The notes under the pieces are model-generated. The model saw only the letters and a list, made by a program, of their open reading frames with translations. It had not been told where the DNA came from and did no database searches. A stretch of DNA of 64,000 nucleotides. Origin: Clostridia bacterium. Lineage in GTDB: Bacteria > Bacillota > Clostridia > UBA1212. This document shows positions 6,259-55,395 of the stretch, one piece after another. The stretch covers positions 1 to 64,000 of the forward strand of contig JAGAKK010000030.1 of NCBI GenBank assembly GCA_017625675.1, read 5' to 3'. Each line of letters opens with the position of its first letter. Within the stretch, counting starts at the first letter, position 1. Position numbers and translations under genes: made by a program.

Positions 6259-6287
6259 TTGTACAGCGTTATTTTTCGTGATACAAT
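6259..6287 (+). promoter_or_regulatory. SigA-type promoter for the CotH-family gene
   Basis: TTGTAC (6259-6264), a 17-base spacer and TACAAT (6282-6287) lie 28 bases before the ATG at 6316. Confidence 0.75.
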
Positions 6288-6315
6288 AGGGAAAATATCT
6301 TGTTGGGAGAAGTTT

Positions 6316-8718
6316 ATGGAACGGTTATCAAAAGCGAAAGTAATATTGACAGTGGTCTTGCTGGTGATACTTTCTTTGTTGGTCACCTGGGCTGCAGTGT
6401 CCTGCAGAAAGGGTGCTGACTCTTCTGAAAACAAAGACGGCGGGACTTCCTTTGCCACTCACAGTCTACTCAATACTTTTTCTGCTACAGAAAATCATAC
6501 TGACCCTGGGTCGGGGACAATGCCTCCTTCCGAGAGTCAGACTGATGCTCCTATAAATACCGAAGCTCCGTCCGGAACAGAAGGTGTTTCCGGGTCAGGT
6601 TCTCCTTATCCGGATGGTACATATTTTCCTGAAATAACAGAAAAACCGACTTTGGGAGATGCTACTCCGGATAATCAGGAGCCTTTTACAACTGAGCCCG
6701 GAACTTCAACTGAGGCCGCAACCGGAACTGCCACAGGAAAGGCGACAGCTACTCCGAAGGTGACATTCAAACCTAACGTGACAGCCACACCGAAGGCAAC
6801 AGCTACACCGAAGGTGATTGCTACTCCGAAAGTGACAGCTACTCCGAAACCTACGGCTACCCCTGCGCCCACTCCTGTAACAGAACCTGATTACAGCAAG
6901 GTAAAAACAGAGAGTATGCCACGTCTTACCATTAAAACTGACGGCGGCCAGAGTATAACTTCAAAAGATTATTACGTGCACGCTTCCATAACCCTTGGAA
7001 ATTGCGACAAGGAATATGCGTTTACAGACAGCCCTGCAGGAATAAGGGTTCGCGGCAATTCCACGGCAACAGCACCGAAAAAGCCTTATCGTATAAAGTT
7101 TGACACGAAGCAGTCAATGCTTGGCCTTAACGACGGAAAGACCTTCAAGAGCTGGTGTCTTATGGCCGATTACTTTGACGGTACTATGCTGAGAACCTGG
7201 GCAACATTTAATTTTGCAAAGGTGCTTCTGGAGGACAAGTACTACAGCTCCGATTGCGCCCCTGTAGAGGTGGTTGTAAACGGAGAGTACATGGGCGTGT
7301 ACCTTCTTTGCGAGCAGACCCAGATAAAGAAGAACAGGGTAAATATTCCCGAAAAGGCTGACGGCTCCACAGACGTAGAAATCGGCTACCTGATGATAGG
7401 TCAGGGCGGCCGCTCTGATGAGCCGGAAACGGTTTTCGTGTATCCGGACATAACGGTTTATGACAAAAACGGCTCTTCAATGTATTTTGGACAGATGAAT
7501 TTCTCTCTGTCGGGAGATGGCTATACAGAGGCTCAGAAGGAATACGTTTCAAAGTACACGTCAGGTGTATTTAAGGTGGTTGCTTCTGCGCTTTATGAAA
7601 ACAAATACTACACCCTGAAGCGTGACGGAACAATGGTTCCGAAGACGTCCTTTAAAGGGAAGACAACCGCAGAAAAACAGTATGAAACAATAAACGCTGT
7701 GTTTAACATTGAGTCAGCGGTGGCAATGTGCGTCCTTGACGAGCTTGTTAAAAACCTTGACGCAATGACTTTTAATATGTACGTGGACCTTAGCCCCCAA
7801 GGTGACGGAAGACTTACATTGGCAGCGCCCTGGGACTTTGACTTTTCAATGGGCAATACGCACTACGGAAGCACCCACAGCACCGCAGGCTTTTACGCTA
7901 CAAATCTTTCTTACAGCGAGGGTATGAGAACGAATCTCTGGTACGCAATGCTGGGAACTGCCGAATGGTTTGACGATATGTGCGCAGAGCTCTGGAAAAA
8001 GCATTACGACGAGCTTCGTGTAGTTGCCTGGGATACCTTGGTTCTGAGTCACAAGTATATGTTTTCCTACCAGCAGGACTATACCAAGTGGGGAACACCT
8101 GCTAACCGCGGAACGATTTATCATCACTGCGCAGAGGACCTTTCCCAAGTCAGTATTCACCTTGACAGCGGCCGTTTTCTGAAGGAGTGGCTTATTGATA
8201 GAATTGAATGGCTTAACGTCCAATGGGGCAACGGAAAACCGGACCCTGACAAACAGTCTTCACTTCTCTTAATGGATCTGACAAAGACATCTAATTTAAA
8301 GTATCTGAGCGGTTTTAAGCGTTGCAAGGGCACGATAACGTCCCAAGGCCTGAAGCTTACTCTGACGGAGGCTCACGACCCTTATTTTTACGTTGATTAC
8401 AGCAGTCTGTCCCAGACGTTTAATGCAGAGGACTATCCTTATCTTGAGATAACCTGTATGATACCGAAAGGCACCTCAGACAAGGCCAACGGCGGTGAGT
8501 TCTTTATATGCTCCGGTGACTACACAGATGCCACAGGCGGTGTGTCAAAGGTTTTGTACTACAGCGACAATGACGGCCAGTACGTTACTTATAAGGTGGA
8601 CCTTCTGACTACAGGCTTCTGGAACGGTGACATTCACAAGATACGAATTGACTTCTTTAACGAATGTGCGCCCGGAGACACAATGTACATAAAAAACATC
8701 AGTCTTAAAGCGTACTGA
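6316..8718 (+). CDS. Secreted CotH-kinase-domain protein with Thr/Pro linker and C-terminal beta module
   Basis: CotH proteins are atypical protein kinases first described for Bacillus spore coat proteins. Secreted versions occur in cellulosome and surface proteins. The 800-residue product starts with a membrane/signal segment (about 8-30). A Thr/Pro/Ser-rich linker follows to about 195, with ATPK(V/A) repeats. The CotH domain runs from about 205 to 640, with RVRGNST..KKPYRIKF at about 244-262 and the metal-binding WDFDFSMGN at about 506-514. The last 130 residues form a beta-rich module that resembles the one in the phosphodiester-glycosidase gene at 52973-55351. The start at 6316 has GGGAG 6 bases upstream; the reading upstream of it contains the promoter. 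Kinase activity and substrate are not shown. Confidence 0.85.
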   Translation: MERLSKAKVILTVVLLVILSLLVTWAAVSCRKGADSSENKDGGTSFATHSLLNTFSATENHTDPGSGTMPPSESQTDAPINTEAPSGTEGVSGSGSPYPDGTYFPEITEKPTLGDATPDNQEPFTTEPGTSTEAATGTATGKATATPKVTFKPNVTATPKATATPKVIATPKVTATPKPTATPAPTPVTEPDYSKVKTESMPRLTIKTDGGQSITSKDYYVHASITLGNCDKEYAFTDSPAGIRVRGNSTATAPKKPYRIKFDTKQSMLGLNDGKTFKSWCLMADYFDGTMLRTWATFNFAKVLLEDKYYSSDCAPVEVVVNGEYMGVYLLCEQTQIKKNRVNIPEKADGSTDVEIGYLMIGQGGRSDEPETVFVYPDITVYDKNGSSMYFGQMNFSLSGDGYTEAQKEYVSKYTSGVFKVVASALYENKYYTLKRDGTMVPKTSFKGKTTAEKQYETINAVFNIESAVAMCVLDELVKNLDAMTFNMYVDLSPQGDGRLTLAAPWDFDFSMGNTHYGSTHSTAGFYATNLSYSEGMRTNLWYAMLGTAEWFDDMCAELWKKHYDELRVVAWDTLVLSHKYMFSYQQDYTKWGTPANRGTIYHHCAEDLSQVSIHLDSGRFLKEWLIDRIEWLNVQWGNGKPDPDKQSSLLLMDLTKTSNLKYLSGFKRCKGTITSQGLKLTLTEAHDPYFYVDYSSLSQTFNAEDYPYLEITCMIPKGTSDKANGGEFFICSGDYTDATGGVSKVLYYSDNDGQYVTYKVDLLTTGFWNGDIHKIRIDFFNECAPGDTMYIKNISLKAY

Positions 8719-41932: not shown

Positions 41933-41963
41933 ATATGTGAAATGAATTGAGGTGCGCAGGGTA

Positions 41964-42731
41964 TTGTTTGGCGACAGAAAGATAGGCTTCGGCTTCGGTG
42001 GCATAGAAGAGGGTGCTTTTAAGCGTTCCTTTGACGGTACCGTAATCGACGGCGTTGACAAAATCGAAGAAAACGTTTTGCTGGATGATTTGTGTGTCTC
42101 CGGTCGCGCAGTATTCCTGGGCGAGGTGGATGCAGACAGAGTGGTTATTCCGGGCTCTGCGGAGTTCAGGGAATTTACTACCTGCGATGATTTTCACGTG
42201 TCGGGAAGCGCGCTGGTAAAGGGTGAGTTTGTGTGTGAAAGCCTTGTGGTGCAAGGCGAAGCAAGAACTCTTGATACTCTTCATTCTGACCTTATTATCG
42301 TGGAGGGGTATCTTAAATCCAGCCGAAAGGTGAAAACGATAAACCTGAACGTTGACGGTACTTTCGAGTGCTCCGGAAGAGTCTTTGCGGATGAAATAAA
42401 GACCGGCGGAAGACTTCTGGCGCTGGGTGAAATGAAGTGCTTTGAACTGGATATTGAATCCGGAAAAGAAAGTATTGTGGGACGACTGCAGGCGGATACT
42501 CTCAGAGTGAAAAACAGTTTGCCCTCTGAGACGGAGTACGTTCTCAATTGCGATTACGCAGATTGCGGAACGGTGGATATTGAATATGCAAAAATTGATT
42601 GCCTCAGATGTGATCAGTGTAGGATTGGCAAGGGTTGTGTCATAGGAAAACTTGATTGCCGGGAAGAGGCAGAGATATCGCCCGATGCTGTGGTTGAACA
42701 GTATGAGGGTAAAAAAACGGAGGTGCTTTAA
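41964..42731 (+). CDS. Bactofilin-like polymer-forming protein
   Basis: This protein of about 255 residues consists of short beta-strand repeats (VSGSALVKGEF, VVQGEARTLDTLHSD, LNVDGTFECSGRVFADEIKTGG, LALGEMKCFELDI) as in the beta-helical bactofilin family. Bactofilins polymerise without nucleotides and scaffold envelope enzymes. It has no membrane helix. The cysteines at the C-terminal end (CLRCDQC) are unusual. TTG at 41964 is preferred, 9 bases after a GAGGTG; the GTG at 41952 has no site. It directly precedes the GT-C gene (three-base gap), so it may organise the glycan machinery. Confidence 0.7.
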   Translation: MFGDRKIGFGFGGIEEGAFKRSFDGTVIDGVDKIEENVLLDDLCVSGRAVFLGEVDADRVVIPGSAEFREFTTCDDFHVSGSALVKGEFVCESLVVQGEARTLDTLHSDLIIVEGYLKSSRKVKTINLNVDGTFECSGRVFADEIKTGGRLLALGEMKCFELDIESGKESIVGRLQADTLRVKNSLPSETEYVLNCDYADCGTVDIEYAKIDCLRCDQCRIGKGCVIGKLDCREEAEISPDAVVEQYEGKKTEVL

Positions 42732-42734
42732 TTC

Positions 42735-45083
42735 GTGGAAACAGGAAATAAAAAGAGTTTCTTCAAGCCCGAAAATAAGTGGGACTATATAAAGCTTATC
42801 GCAGCGACACTGGCTGTGATATTGGTTTTTGTTATAGTTACTGCTGCCGCATTAAGCACAAGGGACGTGTTTTCGGAGGATTTTAACAGCGGAAAGCATG
42901 ATTTTGATACAAGTTATAAAGCCGCCGGGAACACCGTTTTCAGCGTCAGTCAGAATCTTGGAATGGACGGGTCAAAGTGTCTTGTTATTGAAAACAGTGC
43001 CCAGAGCGATGCAAGTTATACGAGAGATATATATTTGCAGGCAAGACGTCATTACAGAGTGACAGGTTACGTAAGAACGGAAAACATCAACGGCTCAGGC
43101 GCTGTGGGTGCATCTATTCAGGTAAAGAAAATGTCAAAAGGCTCCGGCGAAACGGCTGATACTATACTTGCCTCTCAGAATGCCAACGTGACGAGCGGTG
43201 CGTGGACCAAGGTGGTAATAAACCTTCCCGAAACCGATATGAGCCACACGTACCAACTGGTGCTTCGGCTTGGCGGTGTTGAAGACGGCGCTACGGCAGG
43301 CAAGGCGTATTTTGACAACATTACCGTTGAAAAGATCTCTGCCCTTGACGGAGGTACTTTTGATGACGTGAGAATTCTTTCCTGCATTATCGTGGTGCTG
43401 ATGCTTTTTGTATTCTTCGTTGCGTACAGTTATTCAAAAAAATATGAAATCAATGACGGAAAGAGCATTCTGGCTCAGCCGGCAGGCGGTGCCGTTAACG
43501 TTACTACTGCGGTGGTGATTTTGTTTGCGGCGGCGTTTATGCTCCGTATCTTCTTGTCAGTTACCTATTATCAATGTGATATTGACGTCAATCTGTTCAA
43601 GTCATGGGGTGACGTTGCATACAATAAGGGCCTCACAAACGTCTATAAAGAGCTTGGGGCCAATATCGATTATCCGCCTATCGTCGTGTACTTCTTGTGG
43701 TTTGCTTCTGCGGTGGAGAATACTTTCGGAAAATTGTTCGGACTGGGTCACGAGTACGTTCATACAATTTTCGTGAAATTGCCTTCAATGCTTTGCGATA
43801 TGGCTATCGGATACGTTATTTATAAGTATGCAAAGAAATACGGTGCGTCAACGGAATGGAGTCTTTTCTTTACGGCACTGTGGCTCTTTAATCCCTTGTC
43901 ACTTATTGACGCCTCCTGTTGGGGTCAGGTTGACTCTATGCTTACGTTGGCGGTTATTCTGAGCATTATTTATCTTAATAAAAAGAAATACCTTATTGCC
44001 GGAATCTGGTTCGGAGTGGGCGTGGTGCTTAAACCGCAGATGTTCTTCTTCCTGCCTGTTTTCGGGTATATGTGGCTTAAAGACGTAATTGAAGACAAGA
44101 ACGCAATGAAGGCAGTGAAGAGTTTTTTCGCATCTGTGGGAGGCGCTCTGGCAGGTGTGATTATACCCTGTATACCTTACCTTCACATGGGCTTTGAAAA
44201 AGTTGAATTGTTTGGAAAAAGCGTAAAGCTTCCTTGGATATTCTCACTGTTTATCGGAACGGCCAACCATTATGAGTATGCGTCCGTAAACAGCTACAAC
44301 TTCTGGTTTTTATCAGGAAAGAACTGGGTGGAGGACAAGACGACTCTTCTTGAAGCTGCGCTGAGCGCTGAAAAGCCAAGTCAGCTCTGGATAAACATTC
44401 TCTCCAAAACACCCCTTGGTGACATCAGCCTTTTTGCTATAGGAATTACGTTTATTGTAATAATAAGCCTTGTGACCTTGTATTTTGCGATAAGGCTTAA
44501 AAAAGGAGAGCACTTGCCTTATCTTCTTTCTGCGTTTATGTTTGCGGCGGTACCTTTCTTTGCGCCAAGAATGCACGAGAGATACTTTTTCCCTGCGCTG
44601 GCATTGCTTATTATTGCCCTTGTGATATATAACAAGCCCCTTTTGCTTTTGCCTGCAGGACTTCTCAGTGCGTCAGGATTCCTTATCGTTACGGACGTTC
44701 TGATGGGCCTTTCTGTGGGAGGAAATCTTAAAAATCTCGGAAAAGATTATGCGGAGTACAGCGATTATTATTGGCCTGCTCACGCGTCAATTCCGGACAG
44801 ATACAGAATGCTTCTTTCATTGTTGATGCTTTTTGCAGTGCTTACGATATGGGCGATAATGATATTTGCAGAAATTGATGAAAAATCCAAAGCAAATATT
44901 TTAGGCGGAAAGATTTACAATGAGGTAAAAAAAGAACCTCAGGTTTCCGGAAAAGGCGGAACTAAGGAAACAACTTCTTTGCCGGGAATTGTGCCTGAAA
45001 ATTATGATAATATTGAGATCGTTGTTGAAAACGTCGAAACGGCAGACGTTTCTGAGAGAAGAGAAAGGGGAGAAGTACAATGA
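42735..45083 (+). CDS. GT-C glycosyltransferase (ALG6/8-like) with outer lectin-like module
   Basis: This 782-residue membrane enzyme probably transfers a hexose from a polyprenyl-phosphate donor outside the membrane. It has TM1 at about 18-42, an extracytoplasmic beta-sandwich module (about 48-205; NVTSGAWTKVV and KAYFDNITVEKIS mark the last strands), TM2 at about 215-233, then ten or so helices. The GT-C features are CDIDVNLFKSWG in the first loop, DYPPIVVY (from 312) and WGQVDSMLTL. The cytoplasmic end is charged. The module resembles that of the next gene. GTG start with GGAGGTG 9 bases upstream; the stop overlaps the next start (ATGA). Confidence 0.8.
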   Translation: METGNKKSFFKPENKWDYIKLIAATLAVILVFVIVTAAALSTRDVFSEDFNSGKHDFDTSYKAAGNTVFSVSQNLGMDGSKCLVIENSAQSDASYTRDIYLQARRHYRVTGYVRTENINGSGAVGASIQVKKMSKGSGETADTILASQNANVTSGAWTKVVINLPETDMSHTYQLVLRLGGVEDGATAGKAYFDNITVEKISALDGGTFDDVRILSCIIVVLMLFVFFVAYSYSKKYEINDGKSILAQPAGGAVNVTTAVVILFAAAFMLRIFLSVTYYQCDIDVNLFKSWGDVAYNKGLTNVYKELGANIDYPPIVVYFLWFASAVENTFGKLFGLGHEYVHTIFVKLPSMLCDMAIGYVIYKYAKKYGASTEWSLFFTALWLFNPLSLIDASCWGQVDSMLTLAVILSIIYLNKKKYLIAGIWFGVGVVLKPQMFFFLPVFGYMWLKDVIEDKNAMKAVKSFFASVGGALAGVIIPCIPYLHMGFEKVELFGKSVKLPWIFSLFIGTANHYEYASVNSYNFWFLSGKNWVEDKTTLLEAALSAEKPSQLWINILSKTPLGDISLFAIGITFIVIISLVTLYFAIRLKKGEHLPYLLSAFMFAAVPFFAPRMHERYFFPALALLIIALVIYNKPLLLLPAGLLSASGFLIVTDVLMGLSVGGNLKNLGKDYAEYSDYYWPAHASIPDRYRMLLSLLMLFAVLTIWAIMIFAEIDEKSKANILGGKIYNEVKKEPQVSGKGGTKETTSLPGIVPENYDNIEIVVENVETADVSERRERGEVQ

Positions 45084-47608
45084 AAAATATCAATATCCCC
45101 TTTAAAACTAAGATTAAAAAATATTTAAAAACTCTGGTATGTCTTGCAATTATAGTTTTTACCTTGATCGGATGTGCAGGCTGTTCCGGCACAGGAACGT
45201 ATTCCTTTGAAAGAGGAAACTCAAAAAAAGTTACCGGCTGGAAAACCTACAATTATCAGGCTGAAAACAATAACAAACTGAGTATCACGAAGATTTCAAT
45301 TGTGTCAGGCGGATACAAGGGAAAGGCTCTTAAAATCTCAAGCTCCGAAAATAATGATGCCCGTGTGTATAAGCAGATTTCGGTAAAAGAAAAGTCTGTG
45401 TATGAGATCAGCGTTATGGTGAAAACTGAAAACGTTGAGGGCGGACACGGCGCAAATATTTCCGGATACAACTGCTATACAGGCCACTCTGAGCCGGTAA
45501 CGGGTACAACAGAAGGCTGGGTAAAGCAGACGATTTACGTAAAAACCGATGAAGGACAGAAGAAAATAAATCTCAGCCTCGGATTGGGTGGCTACAGCAA
45601 CGAGTCAAAGGGTACGGCATATTTTGATGAGCTGTCTGTTAAAAAGGTATCTGCCGTTCCTGAAGGCGCAACAGCAATCAGACTGGTGGAGAGGACAGAC
45701 ACCGAAAAGAAGGACACTGAGGTAAGCATCTGGCTGAAGCTTCTCTTCGTTATCGCTATCGTAGGCGTATTCGTGTATTGCCTTGGGCTTACTGTTGCCA
45801 ATGATAAATACAATGCAAAGATGAAAAAGTCCCTTACCGATGTTCCCGGAAAGCCTGACAAGAGAGATGCCATAATAATGGCGGCAATGACGGTGCTTTG
45901 CGCTGTATTCTCCTTCGTTCATCTGGGAAGCGTAAGAGGCTGTCCTGAGAATTATTGGAAGGCAGGAGCTGCCGAAGAGTATGTTACCGTTCATTTTAAA
46001 GAAAAGACCACCGTTTCAAGGGTTGCTTATTATTCAGGTATCCCGTCATCAACGGGAAAATATTCAATTCAGTATCTCACTCCCGACGGAAAGTATCTTG
46101 AGGCAACTGCCCTTAATGCGAGTGAGGACAATGAATATACTGATTTCTTTAAATGGGACTATAAAAACGTTGAATTTACTACGGACGCTGTGAGAGTATA
46201 CGTTGATGCTCCCGGATTCTGGCTTAACGAGCTTGGCTTCTACTCCAAAAATTCAAAGGGAGAATACGTCAAGGTGGAGCTTGATATAGGTTCTATTGAA
46301 ACAAGCTATAAGGAAACGAAAACCTCCGGCAAGGCTGAAAATCTTTTTGATGAGCAGAAAGATGTATGCGCCCAGAGGACGTTTATGAATTCTACGTATT
46401 TTGATGAGATTTACCACCCCAGAACGGCCTACGAGCATCTGCACGGTCTTAGTATTTACGAGTGGACTCATCCGCCTTTGGGAAAGACAATTATTTCCAT
46501 TGGTATTGCCATTTTCGGTATGAATACGCTGGGCTGGCGCTTTATGGGTACACTGTTTGGTGTGTTGCTGGTGCCTCTTATGTACGCCTTTGCAAAGAAG
46601 GTGTTTAAAAAGAGTGAGTGGGCATTCTTCGTGTCATTCCTTATGATGTTTGACTTTATGAGGTTGTCCCAGACGAGACTTGCAACTATTGATACCTATG
46701 CATGCTTCTTTACCCTTGCAATGATGTTCTTTATGTACGACTATTTTGTACAAAAGTCCTACGATATACCTGAGAAAAAGGCAATGCTTTCTCTTGCGCT
46801 CTCCGGTCTGATGTTTGGCTTGGGCGCTGCAAGTAAATGGACTTGTCTTTACACAGGAGCAGGACTTGCAATAATTTTCTTCATTGCAAAAATAGCTGAA
46901 TTTATTGATTGTTACAAAAAAAGAGGGCCTTCTAAGCTTACCGCAGAAAAATATTTCACAAATAACTTTATTTTTACTTGCGGAATGTGTATACTATTCT
47001 TTGTAATGATACCTGTTGGTATTTACGTGCTGTCATATATTCCGTATATGGCATCCAAGCCGGGACAGGATCTGCTTGATATTGTTATAGCTAATCAGAA
47101 GGATATGTATAACTATCACAGCGATCTTACTTCGTCTCATACTTACGGCGCGGAGTGGTACACATGGCCTTTCTCTACGTACAATATTTTCTACTTTAAC
47201 GGTGATGCAGGAGAGTCCGTAGCCAGAGTAATGACTATGGGAAATCCTCTCGTATGGTGGCTTGGCATTCCTTGCTTTATCGCTTCACTGTATTTTGCGT
47301 GGAGAAATCGTGACAAGCGTATGGGCTTCTTTGCCGTTGCATATATTATGCAGTTTGCGCCCTGGTTTATGGTAAATCGTGTGTGCTACATCTATCATTA
47401 CTTTACGTGCGTTCCGTTTACTATGTTTATGATTGCGTACGTGTTTAAGGAACTGGTTGATAAAAAGATCATACCGAAATGGAGCGTATGGCTGTACATG
47501 ATATTGGTTCTGATAGTGTTTATAATGTTCTATCCTGCATTGATGGGATTATCTACTACTGCCGGAAAGATTGATTCTCTCAAGTGGCTTTCCACCTGGA
47601 GCTTCTGA
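45080..47608 (+). CDS. PMT-family (GT39) glycosyltransferase with two outer beta modules
   Basis: Protein O-mannosyltransferases move mannose from polyprenyl-phosphate-mannose to Ser/Thr of exported proteins. This 842-residue protein carries the GT39 signature STYFDEIYHPRTAYEH (D442, E443) and THPPLGKTII, then the QTRLATIDTY segment and about ten helices. The N-terminal hydrophobic segment ends in LIGC, which looks like a lipobox. A module at about 40-190 is homologous to that of the preceding gene. TM at about 218-238 and 265-283 precede a second beta module (about 285-425), resembling F5/8 type C domains. Substrates are not known. Confidence 0.82.
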   Translation: MKNINIPFKTKIKKYLKTLVCLAIIVFTLIGCAGCSGTGTYSFERGNSKKVTGWKTYNYQAENNNKLSITKISIVSGGYKGKALKISSSENNDARVYKQISVKEKSVYEISVMVKTENVEGGHGANISGYNCYTGHSEPVTGTTEGWVKQTIYVKTDEGQKKINLSLGLGGYSNESKGTAYFDELSVKKVSAVPEGATAIRLVERTDTEKKDTEVSIWLKLLFVIAIVGVFVYCLGLTVANDKYNAKMKKSLTDVPGKPDKRDAIIMAAMTVLCAVFSFVHLGSVRGCPENYWKAGAAEEYVTVHFKEKTTVSRVAYYSGIPSSTGKYSIQYLTPDGKYLEATALNASEDNEYTDFFKWDYKNVEFTTDAVRVYVDAPGFWLNELGFYSKNSKGEYVKVELDIGSIETSYKETKTSGKAENLFDEQKDVCAQRTFMNSTYFDEIYHPRTAYEHLHGLSIYEWTHPPLGKTIISIGIAIFGMNTLGWRFMGTLFGVLLVPLMYAFAKKVFKKSEWAFFVSFLMMFDFMRLSQTRLATIDTYACFFTLAMMFFMYDYFVQKSYDIPEKKAMLSLALSGLMFGLGAASKWTCLYTGAGLAIIFFIAKIAEFIDCYKKRGPSKLTAEKYFTNNFIFTCGMCILFFVMIPVGIYVLSYIPYMASKPGQDLLDIVIANQKDMYNYHSDLTSSHTYGAEWYTWPFSTYNIFYFNGDAGESVARVMTMGNPLVWWLGIPCFIASLYFAWRNRDKRMGFFAVAYIMQFAPWFMVNRVCYIYHYFTCVPFTMFMIAYVFKELVDKKIIPKWSVWLYMILVLIVFIMFYPALMGLSTTAGKIDSLKWLSTWSF

Positions 47609-47640: not shown

Positions 47641-48765
47641 ATGCAAGCATCAGATTTTGTAAAAGCAACCGGTTGTACTTTCTTTACCGGTGTGCCGGAT
47701 TCACAGCTTAAAGGTCTTTGTGACTATCTCTACGACAATAAGGGTATTTCGAAAGACCATATTATTGCCGCTAATGAAGGAAATGCCACTGCTCTTGCAG
47801 CAGGCTATTATATGGCCACAGGCAAGCTTCCTCTTGTATATATGCAAAACAGCGGTATCGGAAATATTATCAATCCCGTTGCATCACTTCTTAATGATAA
47901 GGTGTATGCGATTCCTTGCCTTTTCGTTGTGGGCTGGAGAGGAGAGCCCGGTGTCAAGGACGAGCCTCAGCATATTTATCAGGGCGAGGTTACAGTAAAG
48001 CTTCTTGAGGATATGGATATTGTTACTTGCATTATCGACAAGGAAACTACCGCAGAGGATATTGAGGCTAAAATTAAGGAATGGGCTCCTGTTTTTGAGC
48101 AGGGAAAGAGCGCTGCATTCGTAGTGAGAAAGGGTGCTCTCAGTTATGACGGAAAGCCTGTTTATAAAAATGATTACGCTATGACCCGTGAGCATGTGAT
48201 TGAGCTTATCACAAAGGCTGCAGGGGACGATATTATCGTGTCTACTACAGGAAAGGCATCAAGAGAGCTTTTTGAGATAAGAGAGCGGGCAGGAGAGACA
48301 CACAGTCACGATTTCCTTACCGTAGGTTCAATGGGACACAGCTCTTCCATTGCGCTTAGCATTGCGCTTAATAAGCCCGGTAGCCGTGTGTGGTGTATTG
48401 ACGGTGACGGAAGTCTTCTTATGCACCTTGGAGCAGCTGCAGTGATGGGTGCCAACGCGCCTGAAAATATGGTACATATCGTTATTAATAACGGTGCTCA
48501 CGAGACTGTAGGCGGAATGCCAACTGTTTCTGAAAAAATTGACGTTGTTAAAATCGCAGAGGGCTGCGGATACAAGAAAGCGGTGTCCGTTGACAACGAA
48601 AGCGATCTTATAAAAATCCTTGATGAGGTAAAGAAGGGAACTGATTGCCTTACTCTTATTGAGATAAAAGCGGCTCTCGGTTCAAGAGCAGATCTTGGCC
48701 GTCCCACTCTTACCGCAAGACAAAACGTAGAAAATTTCATGAATTATCTGAAGGAGAAAAACTGA
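47641..48765 (+). CDS. Phosphonopyruvate decarboxylase
   Basis: This ThDP-dependent enzyme decarboxylates phosphonopyruvate to phosphonoacetaldehyde, which pulls the unfavourable PEP mutase reaction forward. The 374-residue protein has the pyrimidine-binding half (GVPDSQLKGLCDYL, catalytic-type Glu in AANEGNATALAAGY, QNSGIGN) and the diphosphate half with the Mg-binding GDGSLLMHLG (D254 to G257 region) through VINNGAHETVGG. The order fits aepY/ppd enzymes. It is three bases from the PEP mutase fusion gene. Confidence 0.94.
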   Translation: MQASDFVKATGCTFFTGVPDSQLKGLCDYLYDNKGISKDHIIAANEGNATALAAGYYMATGKLPLVYMQNSGIGNIINPVASLLNDKVYAIPCLFVVGWRGEPGVKDEPQHIYQGEVTVKLLEDMDIVTCIIDKETTAEDIEAKIKEWAPVFEQGKSAAFVVRKGALSYDGKPVYKNDYAMTREHVIELITKAAGDDIIVSTTGKASRELFEIRERAGETHSHDFLTVGSMGHSSSIALSIALNKPGSRVWCIDGDGSLLMHLGAAAVMGANAPENMVHIVINNGAHETVGGMPTVSEKIDVVKIAEGCGYKKAVSVDNESDLIKILDEVKKGTDCLTLIEIKAALGSRADLGRPTLTARQNVENFMNYLKEKN

Positions 48766-48767
48766 AC

Positions 48768-50780
48768 ATGAAGGCATTGATTTTAAATTCCGGTGTTGGA
48801 AAAAGAATGGGTGTTCTCACAAGTGAGCATCCCAAGTGTATGACAGAGGTAAACAGCAAGGACACTATTTTAAGCCGTCAGCTTAAGATGCTTGTTGATT
48901 TCGGTGTAGAAGAGGTAGTAATGACTACAGGTCTTTTCGATCAGGTTCTCATTAATTATTGCCACTCATTGGAGCTTCCTTTGAAGTATACTTTTATTAA
49001 TAACCCTGTTTACGACAAGACTAATTATATTTATTCAATCTACTGTGCAAAGGATCATCTTAAAGACGAAGATATCATTATGATGCACGGCGATCTTGTT
49101 TTTGAAAATCGCGTAATGGAGATGCTTCTTGATTCTGAGAAGAGCTGCATGACTGTCAGCTCCACCGCAGAGCTTCCCGAAAAGGATTTCAAGGCAGTTG
49201 TAATTGACGGAAAGATTCAGAAAGTAGGTATTGAATTCTTCAACGATGCTATGGCGGCACAGCCCCTCTATAAGCTTAACAAAGAGGATTGGAACGCATG
49301 GCTTGAAGAGATCTGTGCATTCTGTGAGAAGGACGACGTAAAGTGCTATGCAGAGAATGCTTTCAATGAAGTTTCTGACAAGTGCAACGTTTATCCTCTT
49401 GACGTAGAGAATATGCTCTGCAACGAGATTGATACACCTGAGGACCTTGCAGCTGTTTCTGCAAAGCTTCGTGAAACACTTAACAGAACAGTTTATATGT
49501 GCTTCTCTACGGATATTCTCCACAGCGGTCACATTGCCCTTATCAGAAAGGCAGAACGCCTTGGCAAACTCATTATCGGTGTAATGACGGATGAGGCCGT
49601 TGCAAGCTTCAAGCGTTTCCCTCTCGTTCCTTTTGAGGAGAGAAAGGTTCTTTTTGAAAATCTCAGCGGAGTTTATAAGGTTGTTGCGCAGGATTCACTC
49701 AGCTATGCAGAGAACCTTCGTAAATATCGTCCTACATACGTAGTTCACGGAGACGATTGGTGCACCGGCTTCCAGAAGCCTGTTCGTGACGAGGTGGCAT
49801 CCGTTCTTGCAGAGTACGGCGGACGCATTATCGAGTATCCTTATTCAAAGGACGCAAAGTTTGATCAGCTTGAGAGAGAATCAAGCACCAGACTTTCTAT
49901 GCCTGACGTAAGAAGAGGCAGACTTAGAAGACTCCTTTCTCTTAAGCCTACCGTTTCTGTTCTTGAGGCGCACAGCGGTATTACAGGACTTATTGCAGAG
50001 AAAACCACAGTTTATCAGGACGGAAAAGCATACCAGTTTGATGCAATGTGGGTTTCTTCTCTCTGTGACTCTACAGCAAAGGGTAAGCCTGACATTGAGC
50101 TTGTGGATATGTCCAGCAGACTTCGTACTATTGATGATATTATGGAAGTTACAACAAAGCCTATTATCCTTGACGGCGATACAGGCGGACTTACAGAGCA
50201 TTTTGTTTACAACGTAAAGACTTTGGAGAGAATGGGTGTGTCCGCAGTAATTATTGAGGACAAGACAGGCCTTAAGAAAAATTCACTTTTCGGAACAGAG
50301 GTTGCCCAGACTCAGGACACAATAGAGAATTTCTGCTATAAGATTTCTTCAGGTAAGGCAGCTCAGAATACAAAGGAATTCATGATTATTGCCAGAATCG
50401 AGAGCCTTATTCTTGAGCAGGGTATGGAGGATGCGCTTACAAGAGCTTTCGCATACGTTGAGGCAGGCGCTGACGGAATTATGATCCACAGCCGCAAGAA
50501 GTCTCCTGATGAGATTTTTGAGTTTGTGGAGAAGTTCCGAGCAAAAGATTCACAGACACCTATCGTTGTTGTCCCTACTTCATTCAACACTGTTACTGAG
50601 GAGGAATTTGCAAAGAGAGGCGTAAATATCGTTATTTATGCAAACCAGCTCACAAGAAGCGGTTTCCCTGCAATGCAAAACGTTGCTACGACCATTCTCA
50701 CAAACCACAGAGCAAAGGAAGCAGACGATATGTGTATGTCAATTAAAGAAATTCTTACACTTATCCCTGCAGATTATTGA
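48768..50780 (+). CDS. Three-domain PEP mutase fused to two nucleotidyltransferases
   Basis: This is a 670-residue fusion. Residues 1-235 form a sugar-phosphate/choline-phosphate-type nucleotidyltransferase (LNSGVGKRMGVLTSEHP, HGDLVFEN, and a late EIDTPEDL metal site). Residues 240-375 form a TagD-like cytidylyltransferase with HSGH at 252-255 and VHGDDW. Residues 390-670 form PEP mutase (EAHSGITGLIAEKT, FDAMWVSSL, DGDTGG, and the mutase-specific EDKTGLKKNS at 497-506, which separates it from isocitrate lyase relatives). PEP mutase makes the C-P bond of phosphonopyruvate. The fused transferases probably make a CMP-phosphonate; which one does so is not clear. Confidence 0.92.
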   Translation: MKALILNSGVGKRMGVLTSEHPKCMTEVNSKDTILSRQLKMLVDFGVEEVVMTTGLFDQVLINYCHSLELPLKYTFINNPVYDKTNYIYSIYCAKDHLKDEDIIMMHGDLVFENRVMEMLLDSEKSCMTVSSTAELPEKDFKAVVIDGKIQKVGIEFFNDAMAAQPLYKLNKEDWNAWLEEICAFCEKDDVKCYAENAFNEVSDKCNVYPLDVENMLCNEIDTPEDLAAVSAKLRETLNRTVYMCFSTDILHSGHIALIRKAERLGKLIIGVMTDEAVASFKRFPLVPFEERKVLFENLSGVYKVVAQDSLSYAENLRKYRPTYVVHGDDWCTGFQKPVRDEVASVLAEYGGRIIEYPYSKDAKFDQLERESSTRLSMPDVRRGRLRRLLSLKPTVSVLEAHSGITGLIAEKTTVYQDGKAYQFDAMWVSSLCDSTAKGKPDIELVDMSSRLRTIDDIMEVTTKPIILDGDTGGLTEHFVYNVKTLERMGVSAVIIEDKTGLKKNSLFGTEVAQTQDTIENFCYKISSGKAAQNTKEFMIIARIESLILEQGMEDALTRAFAYVEAGADGIMIHSRKKSPDEIFEFVEKFRAKDSQTPIVVVPTSFNTVTEEEFAKRGVNIVIYANQLTRSGFPAMQNVATTILTNHRAKEADDMCMSIKEILTLIPADY

Positions 50781-50794
50781 TAAAGGAAAAAATT

Positions 50795-51895
50795 ATGTCT
50801 CAGATAATTATTAACGGAAAAGGCGCTTTGCATAAAATTGAAGAAGTTCTTAGGGAGCTTGGAAGCAAGAAGGTGCTTCTCGTTTGTGACGGCGCTTTCC
50901 CCTACCTTCCTGTAAAGGACTTTTTTGACAATATGTCGGTGCCCGTTGTAAAGTTCAACGAGTTTACTGTTAACCCTCTTTATGAGGACGTCTGCAAGGG
51001 CGTTGACCTCTTTAATAGAGAAGGTTGTGACGTAATAATTGCCGTAGGCGGCGGAAGCTCCATTGACGTGGCGAAATGCATAAAGCTTTTTGCCAAAATG
51101 GACCCTTCGGAGAACTATCTCAAGCAGGAGTTTAAGGAAAACGGCATCAAGCTGATTGCACTTCCTACCACAGCCGGTACGGGCAGCGAATCCGCTCGCT
51201 ATGCGGTGATTTATTACAAGGGCGAGAAGCAGTCCGTGGCTGACCTTTCCATTATTCCGGACTATGCAGTTTTAGAGAGCAGTGTGTTGTTGACACTTCC
51301 GGAATATCAGAAGAAATGCACGTTCCTTGACGCTCTTTGTCAGGCAATAGAGTCCTGGTGGTCCGTAAACTCTACTGTGGAGAGTCATGAATACTCTAAA
51401 TTTGCGATCAAGGGATTGCTTGATAATTTAGACGATTATCTTAATAAACCCTCAGAAAGCGTTCTGGAGGCCGTTATGACTGCAGCAAATTTTGCAGGCC
51501 GTGCGATTAACGTTACTCAGACCACGGCGGCTCACGCAATGAGTTACAAGTTGACCTCACTTTATCATTTGCCTCACGGACATTCTGTGGCAATTTGCCT
51601 TCCCGGAGTGTGGCGTTATATGATAAACAATATTGAGAAATGTATTGACCCCAGAGGTTCAGCTTATCTGGCTGGCGTTTTTGAGGATATTGCCAAGGCG
51701 TTGGGTGCGGAATCTCCTGTAGCTGCTGTTGAAAAATTTGCCGGAATTATTAAGGGTCTTGGCATTGATGCTCCCGTTATTCCGGAGAAGGATATTGAAG
51801 TGCTTGGTGCTTCCGTAAATCCGGTAAGACTTAAAAACAATCCTGTTGCTCTTACGGAAGAAGTGCTTAAGCAGATGTACAGAGAGCTTGTCTGA
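50795..51895 (+). CDS. Iron-containing alcohol dehydrogenase, probable phosphonoacetaldehyde reductase
   Basis: This 366-residue group III alcohol dehydrogenase has the NAD(P) segment AVGGGSSIDVAK, TTAGTGSE, and the metal-binding His region HAMSYKLTSLYHLPHGHSVA. By position, directly after PEP mutase and phosphonopyruvate decarboxylase, it probably reduces phosphonoacetaldehyde to 2-hydroxyethylphosphonate, as PhpC-type enzymes do. No aminotransferase for 2-aminoethylphosphonate is present in the window. The ATG at 50795 has AAAGGA 7 bases upstream. Confidence 0.85.
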   Translation: MSQIIINGKGALHKIEEVLRELGSKKVLLVCDGAFPYLPVKDFFDNMSVPVVKFNEFTVNPLYEDVCKGVDLFNREGCDVIIAVGGGSSIDVAKCIKLFAKMDPSENYLKQEFKENGIKLIALPTTAGTGSESARYAVIYYKGEKQSVADLSIIPDYAVLESSVLLTLPEYQKKCTFLDALCQAIESWWSVNSTVESHEYSKFAIKGLLDNLDDYLNKPSESVLEAVMTAANFAGRAINVTQTTAAHAMSYKLTSLYHLPHGHSVAICLPGVWRYMINNIEKCIDPRGSAYLAGVFEDIAKALGAESPVAAVEKFAGIIKGLGIDAPVIPEKDIEVLGASVNPVRLKNNPVALTEEVLKQMYRELV

Positions 51896-51941: not shown

Positions 51942-52892
51942 ATGGGTGTAGTATGTTCCGTTGTAGTCCCCGTGTTTAATGAAGAAGAGGTAATCAATGA
52001 GACCTATAAAAGGCTTACCGAGGTTATGCAGAGTACGGGTGAGTCCTATGAAATTATTTTTGTAAACGATGGAAGTCGTGATAAAACCGCCCTTCTTGCA
52101 AGGGAAATATGCAAAAATGATTCTAACGTAAAGCTCATTGACTTTTCCAGAAACTTCGGACACCAGACCGCCATTACAGCCGGTATGGATCACGCTTGCG
52201 GAGATGCAGTGGTGGTAATTGACGCAGATCTTCAGGATCCTCCGGAGGTTATTCTTGATATGCTTAAAAAGTGGCGTGAAGGCTACGATATTGTTTACGG
52301 ACAACGCATTAAAAGAGAAGGCGAGACAATATTTAAAAAGCTTACCGCTAAGGTGTTTTACAGATTTTTGCGCAGTATGACAGAGGTTGACATTCCTGTT
52401 GATACAGGGGATTTCAGGCTTATTGACAGAAAAGTTTGCGATGCCATGAAAACGATTTCCGAAAGAAATCGTTACGTGAGAGGTATTGTGAGCTGGCTGG
52501 GCTTTAAGAGCGCGCCGGTGGAGTTTGAGCGAAAGAAACGCTTTGCAGGTACTACCAAGTATCCTTTGAAGAAGATGATAAAATTTGCTACAGATGCTAT
52601 AATGTCATTTTCCTACAAGCCCCTTAAAATTGCCACGTTTTTCGGTAGTTTTGTTTCTGTTTTCAGCTTTATCGGACTTATCGTTATGATAATACTTAAG
52701 CTTTGCGGAATAGGTGAGTATGTGGACGGCTGGACGTCCCTTGCAGTAATCTCTCTTTTCCTTAACGGTATCGTTCTGATGATCTTAGGAATTATCGGTG
52801 AATATATCGGCAGAATTTATGACGAGGCAAAGGACAGACCTTTATACGTAATTCGTGAGGTTGTAAATTTCACTGAGGAAAACGTAAAATAA
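51942..52892 (+). CDS. Polyprenyl-phosphate hexose synthase (GT2, DPM1/GtrB type)
   Basis: This 316-residue enzyme transfers a hexose from a nucleotide sugar to polyprenyl phosphate at the inner face. The GT2 domain shows SVVVPVFNEEEVI, FVNDGSRDKT, VVIDADLQDPPE (DxD) and SAPVEFERKKRFAGTTKY. Two C-terminal membrane helices (about 230-255 and 265-290) precede GEYIGRIYDEAKDRP. These are features of GtrB/YkcC proteins. It would supply the lipid-linked donor needed by the two GT-C enzymes upstream. GGAG precedes the ATG. It is the last gene before a strong terminator. Confidence 0.92.
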   Translation: MGVVCSVVVPVFNEEEVINETYKRLTEVMQSTGESYEIIFVNDGSRDKTALLAREICKNDSNVKLIDFSRNFGHQTAITAGMDHACGDAVVVIDADLQDPPEVILDMLKKWREGYDIVYGQRIKREGETIFKKLTAKVFYRFLRSMTEVDIPVDTGDFRLIDRKVCDAMKTISERNRYVRGIVSWLGFKSAPVEFERKKRFAGTTKYPLKKMIKFATDAIMSFSYKPLKIATFFGSFVSVFSFIGLIVMIILKLCGIGEYVDGWTSLAVISLFLNGIVLMILGIIGEYIGRIYDEAKDRPLYVIREVVNFTEENVK

Positions 52893-52972: not shown

Positions 52973-55351
52973 TTAATGCTTTTTCTTCTTCAAGAAAATA
53001 ACTGCTGTTGACAATACTGCAATTACTGATAAGGAATTAAGAACGTTTGAACATCCTGAAACCTCAACTGTAACCTTGTCATCATCGCCTTTTGTAGCAG
53101 ACTGGGTTGCAGGGGTGGTGGCAACAGGTGTCTGGGCATTCGCTTCGTCTGTAGAAGCAGGTGTTTCAGGGACGTCTGCAGTATTAGTCGCATCACCTGT
53201 AGGCGCTGTTGTTTCTGTAACGCCGGCTGTGGAAGATGCGTCGGGAAGGGCCGTTTCTGATGCGTCCGGAAGCGTTGTTTCATTCGGGATGTCAGTGCTT
53301 GTTCCGGGTGTTCCCGCTGTAGAAGTAGCAGTGCTTGTGGCAGTAGGCTTTGCCGTTACCTTATTCGTAGCAGAAGAAGTAGGCTTGTTTGTAGGCGCTG
53401 TTGTAGGCGTAGCTGTGGGTCTTTGTGTAGGAGCAGGCGTTGCTGTAGCAGTCGTCTGGCTTTCTCCGCTGAAAGTTTTTGCAAGAGCATCTGCTTCAGA
53501 GGAGGTCTTTGCAAAGCCCCAGTTGCTTATCTGAACGTTATCGCCTGTGCTTACGCTTCCTTCAAAGAAGTCAAGACGGATGCTGGATAGGTTGCCGGTC
53601 CAGGAAGAAAGCTTTGAGAGATCCACAACCTTTGTGTGCCATTGATCATCCCTCGTCATCGCAAAGCTTGTGGTACTTGATTCCACGGGAGATACGGTAT
53701 TGCCTGCGCATAAATACATTTTGAACGTGCCTGTTTTTGCACCGCTGTTTGTTTTGTAGCGGAGAACTATGTATTTATACTGAGATGCATTCACTTTAGA
53801 TGCTGCGGAACTGAAGTTGAAATATACGTAAGGATCTGAACTTGCAGAAATAGCCTTAAGTTTCAAAATTCCGTTAGAGATAGTAGCAGATGCATTATTT
53901 GCTCCTGAAAAGCTTGATTTTATATTTGACGTAAATTTCACGTTGAAGGGATCAAATCTTTCGGGAACTGAAATGTGAGAAAGAGAGCCTTGGGAGGAAA
54001 CCGAAGGTGTGGGGTCGTATACAAGAGCAATTGAGTTCCACACCTTTCTCGGAGCGCCGTCTGAATAGCATGCTCTTTCTGTATAGCTGCCTGCGTTTAT
54101 GGTAACCATTGTGGTAGAGCCGCCACCGTCAAGAAGGAAGCAGGTATTGTAGCCAACTTCCTGAGCGAAGGAGATCATCTGTGAGAATTTAAGTCCTTGA
54201 TACTTTCCGTTTACATCTGCTGTAATCATGCTGAGCATTACCGTGCCATCGTCTTTAAATCCGATAATACTTGTTGGGTAGTTGCTTGTGTTTGTGTTAA
54301 GGTTTGTTTCATAAGGCACGCCATCCTTTAATAACATCATGTGCCCGCCGATAGCCTCTTCGCACTTCGCCCAGAGGTCGTTGTTCTTGCTCCATGTGTC
54401 GTAAAGGGATGCTGTAACTGAAACCTTGTCGCCTATTGCAAAATTATTCTGAAGCTCGCTGATTCTGGAGTCTCTGGCTGTAATTACAAGATAGCCGGAC
54501 TGAAGGGCGTGCCTTGAAGTGGCGCCGCTTTCGTAGATAGCCTCTACCGTTCCCGTGACAGCGGTATTGTGAGTGAATTTATTCGTACCGCTTGTTTTTA
54601 TGAGAATCTCGTATGCATCTTTGGGAACTGCATTCGTATTGCTGAGACGCTCGTTGTAAACCACCAGAGAATTATTGGCAGGGGCTCTGTTAAGGCCGTC
54701 TGTGGTAATTTCTTTTCCGCTGTTGGTGTTCTTTAAAGTAACTTTAGCCTTAAGCATACCGATAACGGGCTGATTAGATGAAGTGATACCGAAAGAGTAG
54801 GGTCCGTCGTAAGGTGTTTCCTTTACGGTAAGCTCACTGCACCAGATTTCCTTGTCGATAATGGTAACGCCGGTAGTTACACGGTAATTTGAGGTAACTT
54901 CGATGCTTCCCATCTCCGTGGAATTAACCCAGTGCATCCAGTCTCCGTTTACTGCTGCAAGAATCGTTTTGTCTCCTTCGGAGTAGGATTTCACCACGTC
55001 GGTAAGATAACTGGAACCTCTTATATAGTCGCCGCCGTCTACGGAGCTTTTGTGATTAATAACCTCAAAAGAAAGCTTCGTATTTGAAAGGTCAGCCTCA
55101 ACGATATTAATGTATCTTCCGTATGAGGAACCTGCCGCATAGCCGGAGCCTGCTTTAAGGTGTACTCTTGTAAAGTCTGCGCCGGTGTCAGTGCTTCCTA
55201 CTTTAAGCGCAGAGGCGGTGTTTGAGTCCTGTCCTGCAAACTCGTATCCCTGAGCCTGCACCTTCGTATTTCCCAAGGGGATGAAAAGAGAGATGCCCAA
55301 AGATACGGCGCACAAAAAAGAAACTCCTTTTTTTAATTGATTTTTCATCAT
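52973..55351 (-). CDS. Secreted phosphodiester glycosidase (NAGPA/DUF2233) with C-terminal module and anchor
   Basis: NAGPA-type enzymes cleave sugar-1-phosphodiester linkages. The product of about 792 residues has a signal peptide (about 8-34) and a phosphodiester glycosidase domain (about 80-450; AAVNGDWM, EAIGGHMMLL, TCFLLDGGGSTTMV, NSIALVYD). A beta module (about 465-620) resembles the end of the CotH protein at 6316-8718. A long Thr/Ala/Pro-rich linker with TATPAPT repeats follows. It ends in a VSGCSN..helix..KKKKH anchor of the type common in clostridial surface proteins. The start at 55351 has GGAG 9 bases upstream. It may act on phosphate- or phosphonate-linked surface glycans. Confidence 0.85.
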   Translation of the reverse strand: MMKNQLKKGVSFLCAVSLGISLFIPLGNTKVQAQGYEFAGQDSNTASALKVGSTDTGADFTRVHLKAGSGYAAGSSYGRYINIVEADLSNTKLSFEVINHKSSVDGGDYIRGSSYLTDVVKSYSEGDKTILAAVNGDWMHWVNSTEMGSIEVTSNYRVTTGVTIIDKEIWCSELTVKETPYDGPYSFGITSSNQPVIGMLKAKVTLKNTNSGKEITTDGLNRAPANNSLVVYNERLSNTNAVPKDAYEILIKTSGTNKFTHNTAVTGTVEAIYESGATSRHALQSGYLVITARDSRISELQNNFAIGDKVSVTASLYDTWSKNNDLWAKCEEAIGGHMMLLKDGVPYETNLNTNTSNYPTSIIGFKDDGTVMLSMITADVNGKYQGLKFSQMISFAQEVGYNTCFLLDGGGSTTMVTINAGSYTERACYSDGAPRKVWNSIALVYDPTPSVSSQGSLSHISVPERFDPFNVKFTSNIKSSFSGANNASATISNGILKLKAISASSDPYVYFNFSSAASKVNASQYKYIVLRYKTNSGAKTGTFKMYLCAGNTVSPVESSTTSFAMTRDDQWHTKVVDLSKLSSWTGNLSSIRLDFFEGSVSTGDNVQISNWGFAKTSSEADALAKTFSGESQTTATATPAPTQRPTATPTTAPTNKPTSSATNKVTAKPTATSTATSTAGTPGTSTDIPNETTLPDASETALPDASSTAGVTETTAPTGDATNTADVPETPASTDEANAQTPVATTPATQSATKGDDDKVTVEVSGCSNVLNSLSVIAVLSTAVIFLKKKKH

Positions 55352-55395
55352 CTGTGTCAACTCCTAAAGTGTTTTTGATGTTTCGTAATATTTTT

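Follow-up and report, generated by a model that had tools for sequence, protein, structure and literature searches.

Caldicellulosiruptor bescii no longer glycosylates its secreted cellulases once Cbes_1864, a GT39 enzyme encoded in a four-gene cluster, is deleted, and the authors of that study noted in loop 1 of the protein a carbohydrate-binding-like domain (PMC6151902). Binding of the acceptor glycan by a CBM has precedents in EmbC, AftD and ORF12 (PMC11127046). The mycobacterial EmbC/EmbA/EmbB and AftD are GT-C enzymes that use lipid-phosphate sugars, carry extracytoplasmic CBMs binding acceptor or product, and, for Emb and AftD, extend arabinan. ORF12 (GT136, Citrobacter youngae) is the single GT-C enzyme in a pathway of three components whose donor is lipid-linked, and it bears a C-terminal CBM that binds the acceptor glycan, here a polysaccharide (PMC11127046). 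The Pgf system of Streptococcus mutans (PgfS-PgfM1-PgfE-PgfM2) modifies surface adhesins; in the available part of the published account, PgfM1 and PgfM2 are mutually similar and a binding module is unreported (PMC5856776).

The locus considered here lies in a window of 64,000 nucleotides (the whole stretch of DNA that was analysed, from a Clostridia bacterium), in which two adjacent genes encode an ALG6/GT87-like and a PMT-like GT-C enzyme, each with the same lectin-like module (module A) near its N-terminus. To judge from sequence, the closest characterised relative of the window PMT is Cbes_1864, and the likeness includes the PMT core, the DE region (YFDEIYHxRTAYE), a sugar-binding-like domain in loop 1 and an ALG-like gene after the PMT gene. 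The last point was observed at two loci considered as Caldicellulosiruptor-type from locus content and ORF length (L219 and L220), both of which hold a PMT and an ALG-like gene devoid of module A. The PMT ORF of L220 has 1701 bases, as for Cbes_1864 (PMC6151902), and the cluster of L219 comprises PMT, ALG-like, WG-repeat and PPIase genes, four in all as in the Cbes_1864 cluster, with GH9 and GH48 cellulase genes on either side. Compared with the window, the Caldicellulosiruptor-type PMT shares 30% identity over 593 columns (E 1e-70) and the ALG-like protein aligns at E 2e-21. The Cbes_1864 type differs from the window in having the TM-module-TM cassette on neither enzyme and no phosphonate cassette; moreover, a pgfS gene was not detected within about 20 kb around either locus.

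Emb and AftD belong to other CAZy families and place their CBMs differently, whereas the window pair has one homologous module common to two GT-C enzymes whose sequences are unrelated. With Pgf, the window shares a PgfS-like GT2 and two multi-spanning proteins, but the two window cores belong to different families (PMC5856776). No previous report of the shared-cassette architecture was found in the open-access literature. The paired-module arrangement is real, is conserved across an order of gut Clostridia, and has precedents in CBM-bearing enzymes rather than being a wholly new system; it is a clear example in which two catalytically different membrane glycosyltransferases carry a lectin-like cassette.

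Two GT-C cores and a common module

Coordinates are those of the window and refer to its forward strand unless stated otherwise. The ALG6/GT87-like enzyme (42735..45083, 782 aa) and the PMT (GT39)-like enzyme (45080..47608, 842 aa) were assigned using Pfam and Foldseek, and their genes overlap by 4 bases, the PMT start being located inside the end of the ALG gene. The ALG-like protein matched Alg6_Alg8 at E 1e-9 (38.4 bits for a cut-off of 25). Its exact GT-C family is, from sequence and model, unsettled, because GT87 also passes its cut-off (E 5e-6) and the top Foldseek match of the model is GPI mannosyltransferase I (E 3e-6). The PMT-like protein matched PMT_4TMC (E 2.5e-23, 83.1 bits for a cut-off of 32.4) and the PMT domain (E 2.6e-16, 60.4 bits for a cut-off of 22.7), with fungal Pmt4 as the top Foldseek match of its model (E 1e-7).

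By analogy with other GT-C enzymes, the catalytic Asp of the ALG-like protein is predicted to be Asp284 (43584..43586), in the loop after core TM1 (CDIDVNLFKSW); this residue is invariant in the 9 relatives compared, and its motif occurs in 59 of 65 ALG-like ORFs. For the PMT-like protein, the predicted catalytic DE corresponds to Asp442-Glu443 of the YFDEIYHPRTAYE motif (46403..46408), likewise in the loop after core TM1 and invariant (9/9), the pattern Y[FWY]DE being found in 78 of 83 PMT ORFs. By analogy with Cbes_1864, this enzyme is predicted to move a sugar from a lipid-phosphate sugar onto Ser/Thr of proteins.

A relation between the two catalytic cores was not detected by profile comparison (hhalign probability 3.4%), and their alignment score (z = 3.2) lies inside the range of shuffles, in keeping with the preliminary description, which had considered the two adjacent enzymes as distantly related. 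A separation of GT39 and GT57 into different GT-C classes was dropped, since both are listed as GT-CA. Module A, on the other hand, spans residues 43-206 of the ALG-like protein (42861..43352) and 37-194 of the PMT-like protein (45188..45661), and the two copies align by BLASTP at E 4e-11 (29% over 146 aa) and by hhalign at 99.8% probability (E 9e-28), with an alignment score of 127 against a mean of 35 and a maximum of 62 for 1000 shuffles (z = 14.9). The similarity between the two proteins is thus confined to the N-terminal module, the cores scoring within shuffles.

AlphaFold2 models built from nine-row alignments reached a moderate confidence (mean pLDDT 66, most module blocks 55-88). They predict a beta-sandwich at residues 44-201 of the ALG-like protein, with eleven strands, and at 38-190 of the PMT-like protein, with TM helices on either side. 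The Foldseek matches of the ALG model included CBM22, CBM4, CBM16, CBM61 and CBM70 structures, and those common to both models included the CBM70 of pneumococcal hyaluronate lyase (4d0q), CBM4-2, CBM22 and 8xmz. The profile of each module A sequence independently retrieved 4d0q as its best PDB match (E 5e-5 for the PMT copy). The two checks suggested at the outset, fold prediction and profile-profile comparison of the inserts, therefore gave one fold with the same CBM matches, not different folds, and a profile match of high probability. With Pfam, the window ALG module approached CBM_4_9 (E 4e-5, 24.4 bits, below the gathering cut-off of 25.9) and the window PMT module did not match it; a module A protein of locus L145 passed the same cut-off with 31.9 bits.

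Module A is consequently predicted, on the models, to be a beta-sandwich of CBM4/16/22/70 type, and we infer that it binds carbohydrate. By profile, the solved folds closest to it are CBM70, CBM4, CBM22 and CBM16, which also rank among the best Foldseek matches; it differs from them by weak sequence similarity, by its own N-D-x-R / G-A-N signature and by its location on membrane transferases. Instead of holding a growing glycan, the modules might bind peptide, namely a Thr/Pro-rich stalk of the acceptor, or tether the enzymes to peptidoglycan. CBM4/9-like folds do bind varied ligands and the N-D-x-R / G-A-N signature is family-specific, but the great majority of the structural neighbours bind saccharides and the GT-C precedent is glycan binding, so that we regard this alternative as quite improbable.

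The sequence motifs by which the module was first recognised hold for the most part. The xxTEN(I/V)xG turn is present (RTENINGSG in the ALG-like and KTENVEGGH in the PMT-like protein), as are the KAYFD / TAYFDELSVKK endings (GKAYFDNITVEK and GTAYFDELSVKK); the GxW strand is a looser feature, with GAW in one copy, EGW in the other and DW in many relatives. The second, F5/8-like module announced for the PMT protein is also real, although weak in the single sequence. This F5/8 type C / CBM32-like module B (45932..46333) lies between core TM1 of the PMT and the catalytic DE, and its window copy stays below the F5_F8_type_C cut-off (E 0.0011, 22.6 bits for a cut-off of 28.2). An F5/8 match was obtained in 11 of 14 relatives, and the Acetivibrio mesophilus protein scored 29.1 bits, above that cut-off; CBM32-type PDB structures matched at E 0.003-0.02, and a sandwich is predicted by AlphaFold2 at PMT residues 301-408. 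Homology between modules B and A is absent (hhalign 0.2%).

Cassette anatomy, distribution and descent

According to the AlphaFold2 models (with DSSP for the first helix), the ALG-like protein has a first TM helix at residues 15-39 (42777..42851) and a second at 207-240 (43353..43454) that closes a hairpin around module A, and its core TM1 corresponds to residues 256-275. In the PMT-like protein, the second TM helix of the cassette is predicted at residues 217-247 (45728..45820) and core TM1 at 261-279 (45860..45916), the latter also from the alignment with the Caldicellulosiruptor-type PMT. The placement of the insert between TM1 and TM2 thus remains correct for the first two helices of each protein, with the qualification that the catalytic cores start at the third.

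The Caldicellulosiruptor-type PMT (566 aa) aligns with the window PMT from residue 266 on, and module-less PMTs of about 600 aa run from one leading helix to an F5/8-like module and then to the DE motif. By sequence and model, the PMT is therefore an enzyme ahead of which a whole TM-module-TM cassette was added. Module-less ALG relatives (L152, L159 and L219) retain both extra helices, joined by a short loop, and their sequences hence indicate that the ALG module was either placed inside a pre-existing two-helix hairpin or lost from the hairpin in these relatives.

The pair occurs with module A on both proteins in all 9 genomes of the family. At the level of the order, the module was found in 31/31 genomes, and on both proteins in at least 26 of them; in two of the exceptions (G013, G030) the ALG partner has no module, and in three (G010, G012, G017) one partner is hidden by a contig end. 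Among 391 sampled genomes of the class, 66 carry module A. Among the records of the family and order that carry names, most are Clostridia MAGs of rumen and gut origin. The search for the module in other GT-C enzymes, proposed initially as a check, was thus positive across the order, in the class sample and in fused chains.

Such fusions of ALG and PMT cores in one chain were observed at six loci, four of which have the order MOD-ALG-F5/8-PMT (L134, L136, L197 and L221) and one ALG-MOD-F5/8-PMT (L141), the sixth being L143; most fused chains retain one module. They indicate that both enzymes work together. Physical coupling of the pair is further argued by the 4-base gene overlap and by the core-core distances, which are correlated between ALG and PMT (r = 0.90). 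Module A is found on the ALG-like protein only at two loci (L138, L139) and on the PMT only in some class genomes, the ALG partner being module-less in L152 and L159.

These architectures bear on the possibility that the modules serve mainly for assembly, with both TM-module-TM hairpins pairing to hold an enzyme heterodimer and no sugar ligand being involved. Homologous cassettes on two co-working enzymes, the existence of fused versions and the retention of the window ALG module despite missing signature residues would all fit. However, one-module pairs are common (L138, L139, L152, L159), fused chains mostly keep a single module, and co-evolution of module with module was not detected (see below). 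Free-standing copies, copies on secreted proteins and a tandem on an M60 peptidase exist as well, and a chiefly structural role seems very unlikely.

Outside transferases, module A was identified on this M60-type metallopeptidase (two tandem copies, L145:9196-11067), a non-transferase context that fits glycoprotein binding, and on other secreted proteins. Secreted proteins of 424-459 aa with module A and a HEFLHxLER zinc-protease-like motif, having no Pfam match, were also seen at three loci (L140, L165 and L166). Free-standing SP-MOD-TM proteins adjoin the PMT at L129-L131, L134, L137, L193 (Acetivibrio mesophilus) and L223. In the Acetivibrio-type loci (L129, L130, L131 and L193), a secreted or membrane-anchored copy of module A adjoins the PMT and PgfS genes. 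An ALG-like gene is absent within about 10 kb of the Acetivibrio-type loci other than L129. The free-standing Acetivibrio-type protein is a candidate accessory for glycosylating secreted (cellulosomal) proteins, and these loci supply candidate genes for secreted-protein glycosylation in Acetivibrio-type, cellulosome-forming bacteria.

In the tree of the order, one branch (support 97.9) divides the 23 ALG-type modules from the 26 of PMT type, and the transfer or duplication therefore predates the order, as one old event followed by vertical descent. Recent gene conversion between the two modules was rejected on the same separation. The backbone of a wider tree, including other members of the class, lacks resolution and gives no direction of transfer. 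Module transfer between ALG- and PMT-like enzymes must have occurred, as judged from sequences and models, because homologous modules of the same fold sit on sequence-unrelated cores. The transfer put forward in the preliminary description is accordingly retained, with homologous modules on barely related cores, and is amended in its anatomy, which for the PMT is that of a whole TM-module-TM cassette, and supplemented by an ancient date. Before the order diversified, the hairpin may have passed from one enzyme to the other by transfer or duplication, or may have come from a free-standing SP-module-TM protein.

The signature derived from 87 modules consists of N-D-x-R, Y, G-A-N-x-S and W, then G and an A-x-F-D ending. 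It is intact in the window PMT module (N92-D93-x-R95 and G124-A125-N126). The window ALG module is the clearest outlier of the 87, with S91, S94, S127, Q129, N163 and V182 at the N, R, N, S, Y and Y positions, so that N-D-x-R / G-A-N reads S-D-A-S / G-A-S. The PMT module thus looks competent by its residues and the ALG copy changed or decaying, with a ligand possibly lost or altered. Beyond the cores, module-module distances are uncorrelated (partial Mantel r = -0.05, p = 0.67; 23 genome pairs). A common outer ligand of both modules, as originally suggested, is not borne out: the modules do not co-vary beyond phylogeny, the window ALG copy has lost signature residues, and several genomes have the module on one partner only.

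Genetic neighbourhood and proposed pathway

A PgfS/GtrB-like GT2, predicted to be an undecaprenyl-phosphate sugar synthase, is encoded at 51942..52892; it matched NCBIfam PgfS at E 9e-88 with 294.5 bits, below the equivalog cut-off of 500, and was hence considered as PgfS-like and not as PgfS itself. In many relatives, pgfS directly follows pmt on the 3' side (L150, L151, L157-L160, L193, L197 and L221). The relationship to Cbes_1864 and the presence of this GT2 3' of pmt in many relatives are the reasons for which we consider it reasonably probable that the pair forms the outer-face half of a protein O-glycosylation machine made up of a PgfS-like donor synthase, a PMT initiator and an ALG-like extender, the glycosylated acceptor being held by the modules.

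Module homology, conservation, fusions and vertical inheritance across the order are shown by the data, together with a model of the topology; the donor, the acceptor, the order of transfer and the glycan binding that we infer are as follows. The GT2 would load a sugar onto undecaprenyl phosphate, which would then be flipped across the membrane. The PMT, with its DE motif and an F5/8 module near the active site, would add the first sugar to Ser/Thr of secreted proteins, its targets probably being Thr/Pro-rich stalks, and the ALG6/GT87-like partner, coupled with the PMT, would most likely add a further sugar from a lipid-phosphate donor. The CBM4/9-type module of each enzyme, on its N-terminal hairpin, would most likely grip the glycosylated acceptor and retain it close to the two active sites, much as EmbC and AftD use CBMs to bind their acceptors. 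Alternatively, the ALG-like core could act on a different acceptor, for instance a polymer of the cell wall.

On these terms the locus would represent a recognisable two-enzyme family of protein O-glycosylation in gut and cellulolytic Clostridia, linked to one genetically tested member, Cbes_1864, for which the natural fusions and the one-module versions are ready-made deletion experiments. A more tentative extension, which we hold to be possible yet doubtful, would make the TM-module-TM hairpin a mobile glycan-gripping cassette defining a widespread protein O-glycosylation complex of Clostridia with two enzymes, PMT and ALG/GT87-like, in some cases as a single chain. One or two copies would suffice, the nascent glycoprotein would be held for the second enzyme to act on the product of the first, and the glycan would here be finished with a phosphonate.

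Between pmt and pgfS, a phosphonate cassette (47641..51895; TIGR03297 5e-134, TIGR02320 2e-125) encodes a phosphonopyruvate decarboxylase, a fusion of NTP transferase, cytidylyltransferase and PEP mutase, and an Fe-dependent alcohol dehydrogenase. The three-domain fusion itself (48768-50780) joins a MobA-like NTP transferase, a CTP_transf_like cytidylyltransferase and a PEP mutase. For cell-surface phosphonates, the fusion of a nucleotidyltransferase to PEP mutase is an established pattern (PMC6697681). Together with the Fe-dependent alcohol dehydrogenase, the fusion suggests CMP-activated 2-hydroxyethylphosphonate, and a phosphonate-capped glycan is possible from the gene content. The decarboxylase and PEP-mutase genes are also located 3' of pmt in four sister genomes (L048, L049, L050 and L053).

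Directly upstream of the pair is a bactofilin-like gene (41952..42731; Pfam Bactofilin 9e-8), which adjoins it in all 9 family genomes, in families f4-f6 and in most of the order. Its product is a possible scaffold localising the glycosylation enzymes. A PepF oligopeptidase gene is found upstream of the bactofilin-like gene in several families; the bactofilin and PepF neighbours could also relate to cell-wall modification.

This neighbourhood raises the question of whether the enzymes decorate, instead of proteins, a polymer of the cell wall or an exopolysaccharide, teichoic-acid-like and perhaps carrying phosphonate, in the manner of CsbB/YfhO or GtrABS-type systems, the modules holding the polymer. 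The GT2 also resembles GtrB/ArnC-type enzymes, the bactofilin neighbour and the phosphonate cassette, which suggests a tailored surface glycan, point the same way, and in EmbC, AftD and ORF12 the acceptors to which the CBMs bind are polysaccharides. The full PMT and PMT_4TMC signature of the partner and the requirement of the closest characterised homologue for protein glycosylation argue against a polymer acceptor, which we consider unlikely.

For protein O-glycosylation, two Thr/Pro-rich secreted proteins encoded in the window are plausible acceptors, a role suggested by their sequences. Solute-binding lipoproteins encoded downstream in sister genomes were dropped as acceptors, being devoid of Ser/Thr/Pro-rich stretches. 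The first candidate is a secreted NAGPA-domain (phosphodiester glycosidase) protein with a C-terminal TM (52973..55360, reverse strand; NAGPA 1.7e-19), whose gene lies immediately downstream of pgfS on the opposite strand, convergent with the operon; it has a Thr/Pro/Ala-rich stalk of more than 100 residues, with a Ser/Thr/Pro fraction of 0.67 over 30 residues. The second is a CotH-kinase protein with a TATPKVTATPKPTATP-type linker (6259..8718; CotH 1.6e-31).
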